Assembly (NCBI GenBank): GCA_026389335.1
Contig: JAPLIB010000085.1
Coordinates: 57,977-121,976 of the forward strand
Length of the DNA: 64,000 nt
From: Cyanobacteriota bacterium
Lineage (GTDB): Bacteria; Cyanobacteriota; Cyanobacteriia; PCC-6307; Cyanobiaceae
Direction: 5' to 3'
Made by a program: the position numbers and the translations under genes
The notes under the pieces: generated by a model
Told to the model about the DNA's origin: nothing
Database searches by the model: none
Seen by the model: the letters and a program-made list of their open reading frames with translations, nothing else
Shown here: positions 48,547-53,963 of the stretch, in pieces
Layout: the number at the start of each line of letters is the position of its first letter
Numbering within the stretch: the stretch's first letter is position 1

Positions 48547-49764
48547 TCAGCGACGTTGGGCCATCAGGGCGGTGAAACGCTGAAAGTGATGGTCGCTGTC
48601 GTGGGGGCCGGGGCTGGCCTCCGGGTGGTACTGCACCCCGAAGACGGGCTGATCGGCCAGGGCCAGCGCCGCCACGGTGCGGTCATTGAGGTTGTGGTGG
48701 GTGATCGTCACCCGGTCGGCCGGCAGGGAGTCGGCATCGAGAGCAAAGCCATGGTTCTGGCTGGTGATCTCCACGTTCCCCGGGGAGCCGCAGGGATGGT
48801 TGAGGCCGCGATGGCCATAGCCGAGCTTGTAGGTGCGCCCCCCCAGGGCCAGGCCGAGAATCTGATGCCCCAGACAGATGCCGAACAGGGGCAGCTGACG
48901 CTGGAGCAGCAGCTCCCGGGCCAGGGCGATGCCACTGGTCACCGCCGCCGGATCGCCAGGGCCATTGGACAGAAACACCCCTTCGGGCTGCTGGGCCAGC
49001 ACCGCGTCGACGGTGGCATCCGCTGCCAGCACCGTGACCTCACAGCCATGGGCGACCAGCCGCTCGAGGATGGCCCGCTTGATGCCGAAGTCGATGGCCA
49101 CCACCCGGTAGGGCGTGGCCGGCTGGGGCTGGAGGCGGGTGTCGAAACCGGCGGCGCAGAGGCTCGACCAGTGATATAGCTCCTTGGTGCTGACGCCGGC
49201 CGCCAGATTCAGACCTGCCATGGACGGAGCCAGGCGCACCTGCCGCAGCAGCTCGGTGGGGGCGAGACCCTCACTGCTGATGATGCCGTTGATCGCACCG
49301 CCTTCGCGCAGATGGCGCACCAGGGCGCGGGTGTCCACGCCGCGGATTCCCACCACGCCGTGGCGCCGCAACCAGGGCTCGAGGGCTTCCTCGGCACGCC
49401 AGTTGCTGGCCAGCGGCGACAGCTCCCGGGCGATCACGCCGCGCACCTGGGGCCGGCTGGCCTCGAGGTCCTGCGCGTTGACACCCGTGTTGCCCAATTC
49501 GGGGTAGGTAAAGGCGACGAGCTGCCCCGCATAGCTGGGGTCGGTCATCACCTCCTGATAGCCGGTCATGCCGGTGTTGAACACCACTTCGCCGACGACC
49601 GTGCCCCTGGCGCCGAAGGCCAGACCGCGCAGCAGGGTGCCATCGGCCAACAACAGCACCGCCGGCACCGCCGTCTCGGCCGCGGAGTTGGCCGCACTCT
49701 GCGGCTGGGGCCCAACGGCAACGGAAGATAGGGACACGGCCGGGCGCTCAACTGGCTCGATCAT
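48547..49764 (-). CDS. carA: Carbamoyl-phosphate synthase small subunit
   Basis: The 405-residue product carries the CarA N-terminal domain ([28 protein letters not shown]) and a class I glutamine amidotransferase domain with [25 protein letters not shown] (catalytic Cys) and [13 protein letters not shown] (catalytic His). It supplies ammonia from glutamine to CarB for arginine and pyrimidine synthesis. The first ~30 residues are an Ala/Ser/Val-rich extension. Its ATG overlaps the trpD stop by 4 bp. Confidence 0.95.
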
Positions 49765-50804
49765 CCCGCAGCAGGGTGGGCCAGGGCCGCACGCAGGGCT
49801 TCCAGCCGCTGCCAGGGTCGACCGCTCTGCAGACAGTCCCTCGCCTGCGGCAGCGCCTCAGCCACCGAAGCCGCCAGGCCGCAGGTCCAGAGCACCAGGG
49901 CGGTGTTGAGGGCCACCACATCGCTACGGGCCTGGTCCCCTTCGCCCTGGAGCACCGCTTCGAGCAGGCGCCGGTTCTGCTCCAGGTCGCCGCCGCCGAT
50001 GGCCGCCATGGGGGCCTGATCCAGGCCGAGGGCGACCGGATCAAGCCACTCCTGTCGCACGACGCCGTTCTCCAGCAGGCGCAGTTCACTGGGCCCAGAC
50101 AGGGTGGCCTCATCGAGGCCGCCATGGCCATGGACAACGATGGCGCGACTCTGCCCCAGGCGCCGCAGCGCCTCGGCCATCGGATCGAGCAGATCGGCCC
50201 GGGCCACCCCCAGCACCTGACAATCGGGCTGCAGCGGGTTGACCAGGGGCCCCAGCAGGTTGAACACGGTGCGCACCCCCAGGGCCCGACGCAGCGGCAC
50301 CAGGCCGACCAGGGCCGGATGCCAGCCCGGGGCAAACAGAAAGGTGACCCCCGCCGCGGGCAGGGCGGCGATCACCCGTTCGGCAGGGGCCTGGAGCTCG
50401 ACTCCAAGGGCTTCGAGCACATCGGCGGAGCCCACCCGGCCGCTGGCACTGCGATTGCCATGCTTGGCGACATGGGCACCGCAGGCAGCGGCGGTGAAGG
50501 CCACGGCGGTGGAGATATTGAAACTGTCAACGCCGGCGCCACCGGTGCCGCAGGTGTCGACCAGATGCAGTTGGGGGCGGGGGGCCGGCAGGGGGCAGTG
50601 GTCGCGCAGCACCTGGGCCATGGCGGCCAGCTCCTCGCCCCGCATGCCTTTGCAGCGCAGGGCCGCCAGCAAGGCACCGGTGAGCGCCGGATCGATCTGC
50701 TCACCGATCCAGCCCCGCATCAGCTGATCGGCCTGCTGGCGGTCGAGATCACGGCCCTCGATCAGCTGCTCCAGCAGCTGGGGGAAGGACAAGGCGGCAC
50801 CCAT
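49761..50804 (-). CDS. trpD: Anthranilate phosphoribosyltransferase
   Basis: The 347-residue protein starts ATG 50804. Signatures are [16 protein letters not shown] (PRPP loop), [24 protein letters not shown] and [15 protein letters not shown]. It catalyses the second step of tryptophan synthesis. It is translationally coupled to carA. About 180 bp upstream lies a strong intrinsic terminator preceded by extensive inverted repeats, so trpD-carA expression may be controlled by a leader RNA. Confidence 0.95.
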
Positions 50805-50984: not shown

Positions 50985-51017
50985 AAAAAAAAAGCCCGGG
51001 TGCTAAGCACGCCGGGC
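50985..51017 (-). terminator. Strong rho-independent terminator upstream of trpD
   Basis: Read on the minus strand, GCCCGG-C-GTGC-TTA-GCAC-CCGGGC is followed by nine T residues. The stem is 10 bp with one bulge. It ends a minus-strand transcript about 180 nt before the trpD start codon and about 210 nt after the DUF3288 stop. Confidence 0.85.
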
Positions 51018-51180
51018 CGGGTGATGGGGACAGCTCTACTATCACCCGAGGAGGGCCGATCTGGCGACTGCGACCCACGCGATCGAACCCAGGCCACGCC
51101 CCAGTTGCAGGTTCCAGAGGCTGCTGGCTGACCCGGAAGCCTCTGGGGCGTGGCCATCCGGTTCCAGGAAAGGTCCGGCC
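51018..51180 (-). ncRNA. Candidate structured RNA (independent sRNA or trpD leader)
   Basis: On the minus strand upstream of the terminator are nested complementary segments. GGCCACGCCCCAG (51143-51155) pairs perfectly with CTGGGGCGTGGCC (51092-51104), enclosing AGCCTCTGG / CCAGAGGCT (51138-51146 / 51114-51122). CGGGTGAT / ATCACCCG (51041-51048 / 51018-51025) forms another hairpin. A rod-like fold ending in an intrinsic terminator fits a small RNA or an attenuator. I do not recognise it as tmRNA, RNase P RNA or SRP RNA; 6S RNA cannot be excluded. The 5' end is not defined. Confidence 0.5.
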
Positions 51181-51227
51181 CCAGCTGCGTGCAGCCAGCT
51201 GGGTCTGAGCAGCCGCCCGGCAGGGAT

Positions 51228-51536
51228 TCAGGGGGAATCGGTATCGGCCGTGTCAAATCCCGAGCCGACCGCCTCGGCCACCGGCGCCGGACCGGGACGG
51301 AATCCGGCGGCCCAGATGGCCCGGGTGCGCTGATGCAGGCCGTCGCGATCGAGGCCCCACAGCCGCAGCACCCGTTCGAGATCGTCCTGGAGGTCGGTGG
51401 CTCCGGGAAAACCCTCGTAGCGCATCAGCAGCCGGGCGGCATCCACCAGCTGCTCGTCGCCCGGGGGATCGGCAGCCAGCAACCGGTCGATGCTCTGGCG
51501 GTCGATGGCATGGAGGGGGTGGCTCTGCTCGTCCAT
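51228..51536 (-). CDS. DUF3288 family protein
   Basis: From ATG 51536 (MDEQSHPL) the product is 102 residues. The core DRQSIDRLLAADPPGDEQLVDAARLLMRYEGFPGATDLQDDLERVLRLWGL matches the small cyanobacteria-only DUF3288 family. It is helical and soluble and has no known function. It is divergent from the ABC exporter across about 105 bp. Confidence 0.75.
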   Translation of the reverse strand: MDEQSHPLHAIDRQSIDRLLAADPPGDEQLVDAARLLMRYEGFPGATDLQDDLERVLRLWGLDRDGLHQRTRAIWAAGFRPGPAPVAEAVGSGFDTADTDSP

Positions 51537-51642
51537 GGCAGGGGGCATCCAGGGGATCAGCAGCGTGGAGGCTGGCACGAACACGGCTGGGGGATCGCTG
51601 GGATCCCGGCCGGCTGCTTAGGTTGAGTCCCTCGATGGCCGG

Positions 51643-53400: not shown

Positions 53401-53589
53401 AGGGGCCAGGAGCGCAGGCGCAGCCTGGGGCTGCTCAGCGCCCAGGAGGCCGATCCGATCCGTGAGTGTCAGATTGCGCCGTCCCGTCCGGCAACTCCGG
53501 CCCCGGCTCAGGTCCGTGGGGCTGGTTGCACCAGATGGAATCAGATTGGTCTGGATCGCCCATTTTGATTCGGATGCTTCAGGTCGGTT

Positions 53590-53840
53590 CAGATGATCCA
53601 GGTTCGTTTTGATGATCCAGATCGCTTCGGATGGTCCAGATCCAGATCGGATCCATCACAGACACCAGATCGGATCGATCAGACCAGATTCAGACCAGAT
53701 CGGATTGGATTGGATTTGATCAGAGTGGATCGGATTGGATTGGATTGGATCAGATCAGATCAGATCAGATCGCAGAAAATCTGATCAGATCGCGAAAAAT
53801 CAGATCGTGTAGACCGGAGAAGACAGGATCCGATCTCAGC
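53590..53840. repeat. GATC-rich degenerate repeat tract
   Basis: Short variants of GATCAGATC, GGATCGGATT and GGATTGGATT run head to tail, including perfect runs such as GATCAGATCAGATCAGATC. About twenty GATC tetramers occur in ~250 bp. The strand is purine/T-rich and C-poor. Confidence 0.8.
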
Positions 53841-53841
53841 T

Positions 53842-53963
53842 CTTGATTACCCAGAGCGCCTCGCCAATCCCGGATCAGTCCCAGCTAAGGCTTTATTCAT
53901 GTGGCGGGAACACGGCAGACCATGGGCAGCACGCCCCGCCAGGGTGTGAACTGGGTAATCAAG
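53842..53963. repeat. Nested inverted-repeat element
   Basis: A perfect 13-bp inverted repeat CTTGATTACCCAG (53842-53854) / CTGGGTAATCAAG (53951-53963) encloses a second pair TGGCGGG / CCCGCCA. The 122-bp unit could fold into a two-stem RNA or be a small MITE-like element. No flanking target duplication is obvious. Confidence 0.55.

Follow-up and report, generated by a model that had tools for sequence, protein, structure and literature searches.

Small RNAs (sRNAs) that act on sigma factor mRNAs are known from E. coli, where OxyS, DsrA and ArcZ control rpoS; the RNA predicted here is of unrelated sequence, however, and its pairing is predicted to be direct, over 13 nt at the start codon. No other photosynthetic cells in the oceans are as abundant as Prochlorococcus and Synechococcus. 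That these cells have few regulatory proteins is general knowledge and was the premise of Steglich et al. (PMC2518516), and some of the organisms concerned lack Hfq, according to a review of cyanobacterial sRNAs (PMC6202907). Yfr1, a cyanobacterial sRNA of about 54-65 nt with the motif ACUCCUCACAC at the guaB-trxA locus, resembles the new RNA in being very short, picocyanobacterial and trans-acting through a conserved single-stranded motif (PMC2190773, PMC6202907), but the new RNA carries GUCCCCAUCACC at the DUF3288-trpD locus, and the Yfr1 motif is absent from its sequences. Yfr2-Yfr5 (Cyano-1), Qrr and PrrF are, like the new RNA, multicopy families with one common motif at unrelated loci (PMC2518516, PMC6202907); the Yfr2 motif is complementary to Yfr1, whereas the new loci have no Rfam match to such families. 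Yfr28 of Prochlorococcus MED4 is also predicted to target a sigma factor mRNA, that of sigD PMM0577 (PMC7368042), but it is located at ftsZ and an ftsZ 5'UTR complements its first 46 nt, while the new RNA is found at trpD and elsewhere. Finally, Yfr103, an sRNA of 290-328 nt and unknown function, is likewise multicopy in marine Synechococcus and LL Prochlorococcus (PMC5069720); its paralogs are conserved over ~300 nt, whereas conservation among the new paralogs ends ~50 nt upstream of the 5'-terminal motif, here called the seed.

The window, the whole 64,000-nt stretch of Cyanobiaceae DNA that was analysed, contains on its minus strand, in this order, a DUF3288 gene (51228..51584, PF11691), a set of inverted repeats, a GC-rich hairpin, nine T residues, trpD (anthranilate phosphoribosyltransferase, 49761..50804, TIGR01245 above cut-off) and carA (carbamoyl-phosphate synthase small subunit, 48547..49764, TIGR01368 above cut-off). 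The features listed in a preliminary description of the DUF3288-trpD interval were all found on the minus strand by direct reading: a 13-bp inverted repeat (51092..51155) with arms GGCCACGCCCCAG (51155-51143) and CTGGGGCGTGGCC (51104-51092), a nested 9-bp pair, an 8-bp pair CCCAGCTG/CAGCTGGG within 51203-51180, the GC-rich hairpin (51018-50993), the T run (50993-50985), and the trpD ATG (50804) 180 nt past the end of that run. The whole interval folds at -127.5 kcal/mol vs -109.4 kcal/mol for dinucleotide shuffles (z -3.4; 0/200). A simple scan of the interval called no terminator; a bulge in the stem is the probable reason.

In a whole-genome search, nothing but the 3' part of the interval proved common to 35 other genomes of the genus. 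The conserved unit, 51067-50985 on the minus strand, consists of promoter-like boxes, the invariant 5' end GUCCCCAUCACC and the terminator. Among 88 distinct copies of this locus (copy 1) across the family, chosen by a pattern that included positions 0 onward and excluded those upstream, positions -120 to -41 carry about 0-0.3 bits each and the 3' part close to 2 bits per position, near-total conservation starting at G 51031. In the nearest relative, G028, the flanks are 89-96% identical and the 13-bp hairpin is missing. The proposal that the 13-, 9- and 8-bp repeats form part of a structured RNA is not supported: G028 and the 88 copies show the repeats to be lineage-specific and outside the RNA gene. 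Where the present genome has the 13-bp hairpin, the G028 locus (L051, contig C31) shows the upstream spacer partly duplicated, and the spacer adjoining the sRNA promoter is, to judge from this comparison, apparently a mutable site. A match in L002 to part of the upstream hairpin was considered as a repeat element and rejected, L002 forming a different hairpin.

The conserved unit reads as the gene of a 46-nt sRNA. We infer the transcript to be 51031-50986 (minus strand) from the onset of conservation at G 51031 and from the second copy in related genomes, whose similarity begins at the same G (query 200-249). At a canonical distance upstream of this putative start lies a -10 box, GATAGT (-12..-7, 51038..51043; GATA[GT]T in relatives, 1.5-1.8 bits per position), canonically spaced from a -35-like box, TCGCCA (-36..-31, 51062..51067; TCGCCAG/TTGGTCAG in relatives), over which the bits of the 88 copies rise from ~0 to 0.4-1.8. 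The predicted RNA (50986..51031) is near-invariant in the family and is recovered by the covariance model R1 with E 8.9e-13. It would consist of a 13-nt seed, GUCCCCAUCACCC (51019..51031), predicted to be unpaired and complementary to the start codon region of a sigma factor, followed by a terminator hairpin with a one-bulge stem (50993..51018) and the U run (50985..50993). These last 46 nt alone fold at -19.7 kcal/mol, better than shuffles (z -3.6). In 44 sequences, the terminator hairpin has compensatory changes: four of its ten pairs change on both sides and 93% of cells are paired, and its covariation score is reached by 0/500 shuffles. A further stem of copy 1, GGGTGAT/ATCACCC, was rejected as an RNA helix because its 5' arm mutates without compensation and also lies upstream of the putative start. 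Thus the free small RNA foreseen earlier is supported, not as a structured RNA of 160-200 nt but as a 46-nt RNA from the last third of the interval. The hairpin lies 45-250 nt past the DUF3288 gene on the same strand, as would an ordinary terminator of that gene with a tail conserved by chance, but a terminator needs neither an invariant 12-nt 5' tail and a conserved -10/-35 pair nor multicopy paralogs at unrelated loci, and we consider this reading extremely improbable.

No Rfam family matched the RNA above the gathering threshold. At gathering and relaxed thresholds the window and the related loci gave only tRNAs and chance matches, SPRY4-IT1, HBV epsilon, SorX and Chlorobi-1 being rejected as chance; covariance-model scores for 6S, Cyano-1/Yfr2, T-box and others were all below gathering. 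The MED4 RNA table of PMC2518516 has no entry of matching length and context, the available part of the review PMC6202907 makes no mention of the RNA, and a text search for the seed in the open-access literature returned no cyanobacterial sRNA paper; an existing name may stand in other literature. According to Steglich et al. (PMC2518516), their array could miss RNAs that are very short or lie near genes, and the size of the 46-nt RNA may be why the screens failed to find it. The RNA fits best as a new family within an established kind, the trans-acting base-pairing sRNAs, distinct from Yfr1, Yfr2, Yfr103, 6S and any Rfam family.

Wherever the downstream gene could be read, copy 1 directly precedes trpD on the same strand, a position that spans the Cyanobiaceae (Cyanobium, Synechococcus and Prochlorococcus). 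The distance from the U run to the trpD ATG is 6-10 nt in many low-GC and some high-GC relatives and 13-250 nt in the others, including the 180 nt of the present genome. This strict synteny, and the closeness of the trpD ATG in many relatives, would suit a transcription attenuator of trpD-carA, in which the short RNA is only a prematurely terminated leader and a tryptophan or pyrimidine signal regulates read-through. Against this, a single-hairpin RNA of 46 nt that contains no leader ORF has room for neither a leader peptide with Trp codons nor an alternative, antiterminating hairpin; seed and terminator reappear at loci that do not adjoin trpD; and attenuation leaves unexplained the complements in the sigma factor and DUF565 genes and the co-loss described below. 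An attenuator is therefore distinctly unlikely, and of the attenuated tryptophan/carbamoyl-phosphate leader suggested earlier only the position stands, i.e., a terminator 6-250 nt before trpD.

In the genus, a second copy is flanked on one side by a small ORF (MSQSKREQVV...) and on the other by a DUF565 gene (PF04483). It has a different promoter, TTGCCC-17 nt-TTTGCT, and in the present genome (L073) a single seed change, GTTCCCATCACCC. Additional paralogs, each with its own promoter and set in unrelated flanking sequence, share this 5' end in Prochlorococcus-type and marine Synechococcus-type genomes; some of the former have five to ten. What these paralogs have in common is limited to a promoter stretch of ~50 nt and an RNA stretch of 45 nt, and the seed is near-invariant even among copies otherwise alike only in their promoter-plus-terminator layout. 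Most of the small cyanobacteria checked, freshwater as well as marine, have the RNA gene. A seed followed by a U run within 42 nt is present in 112 of 131 family genomes, the reversed pattern being rare; the covariance model has hits in 80 of 121 family genomes, while about 210 genomes from other cyanobacterial families gave no hit. When exact copy 1 was sought across 84,980 species, Cyanobium, Synechococcus and Prochlorococcus were among the matches listed; the few scattered others among the matches listed are probably due to chance. One contig labelled Bifidobacterium breve (L335, CALPNT020000001.1) carries the cyanobacterial copy 1 locus, and the label is probably wrong. In four Prochlorococcus-type loci (L272, L273, L292, L301) two seeds lie 110-160 nt from each other, and the upstream seed often lacks a clear terminator. 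A weak R1 match in G171 was rejected as an unrelated terminator.

The reverse complement of the seed occurs at 12 places in the present genome, vs 2 for the reversed control, and a scan of seven genomes with the pattern GGTGATGGGGA gave 9-15 matches each, vs 1-2 for the control. Two sites recurred in a start or leader context, the start of a sigma factor gene and the leader of the DUF565 gene; the other recurring matches appeared to be coding. At the start codon region of a group-2 sigma factor, whose protein holds sigma-70 regions 1.2, 2, 3 and 4, lies GGGUGAUGGGGAC, a perfect 13-nt complement of the sRNA 5' end; in the present genome the full complement, GGGTGATGGGGAC, covers the ATG. Five other genomes of the genus have an identical sigma start, and this sigma gene also accounts for the exact GGGTGATGGGGACACC sites that were read in other genera. 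The seed/sigma-start duplex is predicted at -30.2 kcal/mol, bettered among 3876 windows of the 64 kb only by the opposite strand of the sRNA gene itself, and in five lineages the 14-nt 5' end pairs with its own sigma start at -24 to -30 kcal/mol.

To avoid circularity, sigma orthologs were then gathered by protein similarity alone, which gave 62 readable starts. In 52 of these GGTGATGGGGA stands at the start codon; four are variants, with GGGTCATGGGGA in G076 and G125 (group g41) and the GTG-start GGGTGTGGGGAC in G088 and G103; and six (G067, G121, G081, G126, G090, G080) are without the site. A distant mRNA complementary to the conserved seed, itself unpaired in the predicted fold, as a trans-acting sRNA needs, is thus found in an unbiased ortholog set. 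In low-GC genomes, where a G-rich string is unexpected, the start is typically AGGAGGCCAGGGTGATGGGGATCCCTCTGG. Codon 2 is the Gly codon GGG in all 23 sigma genes compared, although GGG makes up only 11% (low GC) to 17% (high GC) of their remaining Gly codons. The sRNA, by model or by seed plus U run, was detected in 49/52 genomes with the site and 4/4 with a variant, i.e., in 53/56, vs 0/6 without it. For the R1 model alone this co-occurrence has a Fisher p of 4.4e-4, and for the combined table a hypergeometric probability, worked by hand, of 1.4e-6, both figures ignoring shared ancestry. The six genomes that lack both span four genera, G080 being only 62% complete. G102, G107 and G123 keep the sigma site without a detected sRNA, and G158 keeps it with a changed copy 1 seed. 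A close ortholog of the sigma factor is missing from 22 of the 23 other cyanobacterial families that were tested, so the sRNA and its predicted target share their range. G081, which has neither sRNA nor sigma site, bears TCCCCATCACC within two high-copy insertion-sequence-like families; its seed matches (L461-L479) were for that reason rejected as sRNAs.

A clean compensatory change between seed and sigma target was not found. In g41, where the target is altered to GGGTCATGGGGAC, the distal seed drifts too (ATCACT, ATCCCC) and the core GTCCCCAT is retained; that is, the distal halves of seed and target drift together and GUCCCCAU/AUGGGGAC is kept. Position 13 of the sRNA and its partner base in the target are both variable, and they do not strictly agree. 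Part of the conservation at the sigma start could serve a structure of that region itself; the hairpins that can be drawn around the sigma AUG were not more stable than those of shuffles.

In genomes with copy 2, the DUF565 5'UTR contains an element, GGGCCGGGTGATGGGGATC[A/G]CC, 121-124 nt downstream of the copy 2 seed and behind a separate promoter-like TGTAGAC. This element is conserved across genera and is complementary to copy 1 over 11-18 nt, and the hairpin in which it lies is likely a second target of the sRNA. Its palindrome, GGTGATGGGGATCACC, and an imperfect dyad in copy 1, GGGTGATAGTGGAnnnGTCCCCATCACCC, over -10 and +1, might suggest that the GGTGATGGGGA/TCCCCATCACC motif is a DNA site for a transcription factor, placed in the sRNA promoters and in the DUF565 and sigma genes. 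But the left arm of the copy 1 dyad varies (GGGCGAT, GGGGGAT) while the right is constant, and copy 2 and the Prochlorococcus paralogs lack this left arm. Furthermore, in the RNA genes the motif always reads in the sense orientation and precedes a terminator, the two targets always carry its complement, and the A>G change in the DUF565 palindrome breaks the DNA symmetry while leaving a G-U pair intact in the hairpin GGUGAU-GGGG-AUCRCC, as expected for an RNA rather than a DNA palindrome. We hold a DNA site to be very unlikely. A CRP-type site, GTGAT-N4-ATCAC, in the DUF565 leader is not favoured either, since some genera have ATCGCC, and GGTGATGGGGATCACC was rejected as the holder of the DUF565 start codon because alignment places the start further downstream. 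In L038 and its relatives, a conserved outer stem, GCAGGG/CCCTGC, encloses the GGTGATGGGGATCACC hairpin, and the 5'UTR looks like a structured leader in its own right; there a pyrB-like gene lies convergent behind DUF565.

Taken together, the data make it likely that copy 1 encodes a 46-nt, multicopy, trans-acting antisense sRNA that blocks translation of the family-specific sigma factor and serves as the leader of trpD as well. RNA polymerase would start at 51031 and stop near 50985; the 46-nt product would have a free 5' end, and its seed would pair with the sigma mRNA around the AUG, most likely blocking ribosome binding and hence initiation; repression is the expected direction from the position of the site at the sigma start. 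Because paralogs with different promoters share the seed, several signals could feed into one target. Since the terminator precedes trpD, any transcription of trpD from copy 1 must read through, and failed termination would let the transcript run on into trpD-carA, making it also the 5' leader of that mRNA, as trpD is directly downstream; in some relatives there is no room for a separate promoter between copy 1 and trpD. The probable role of the RNA is to switch a master regulator, the sigma factor. If this is true, a near-universal multicopy sRNA whose match to a group-2 sigma start codon is strictly conserved would be a central control element of picocyanobacterial cells. A broader proposal is that an undescribed multicopy family of 40-48-nt sRNAs acts as the core post-transcriptional switch for a sigma factor that only picocyanobacteria have, the two being gained and lost together, and that premature termination before trpD releases the sRNA and so couples expression of tryptophan and arginine/pyrimidine synthesis genes to the sigma factor; in this full form it is rather unlikely.

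Elsewhere in the window, just past an ABC transporter gene, positions 53560-53850 contain what seem to be short, degenerate repeats (GATCGG / TTGGATCAGATC-like), and several frames there have low-complexity ORFs.
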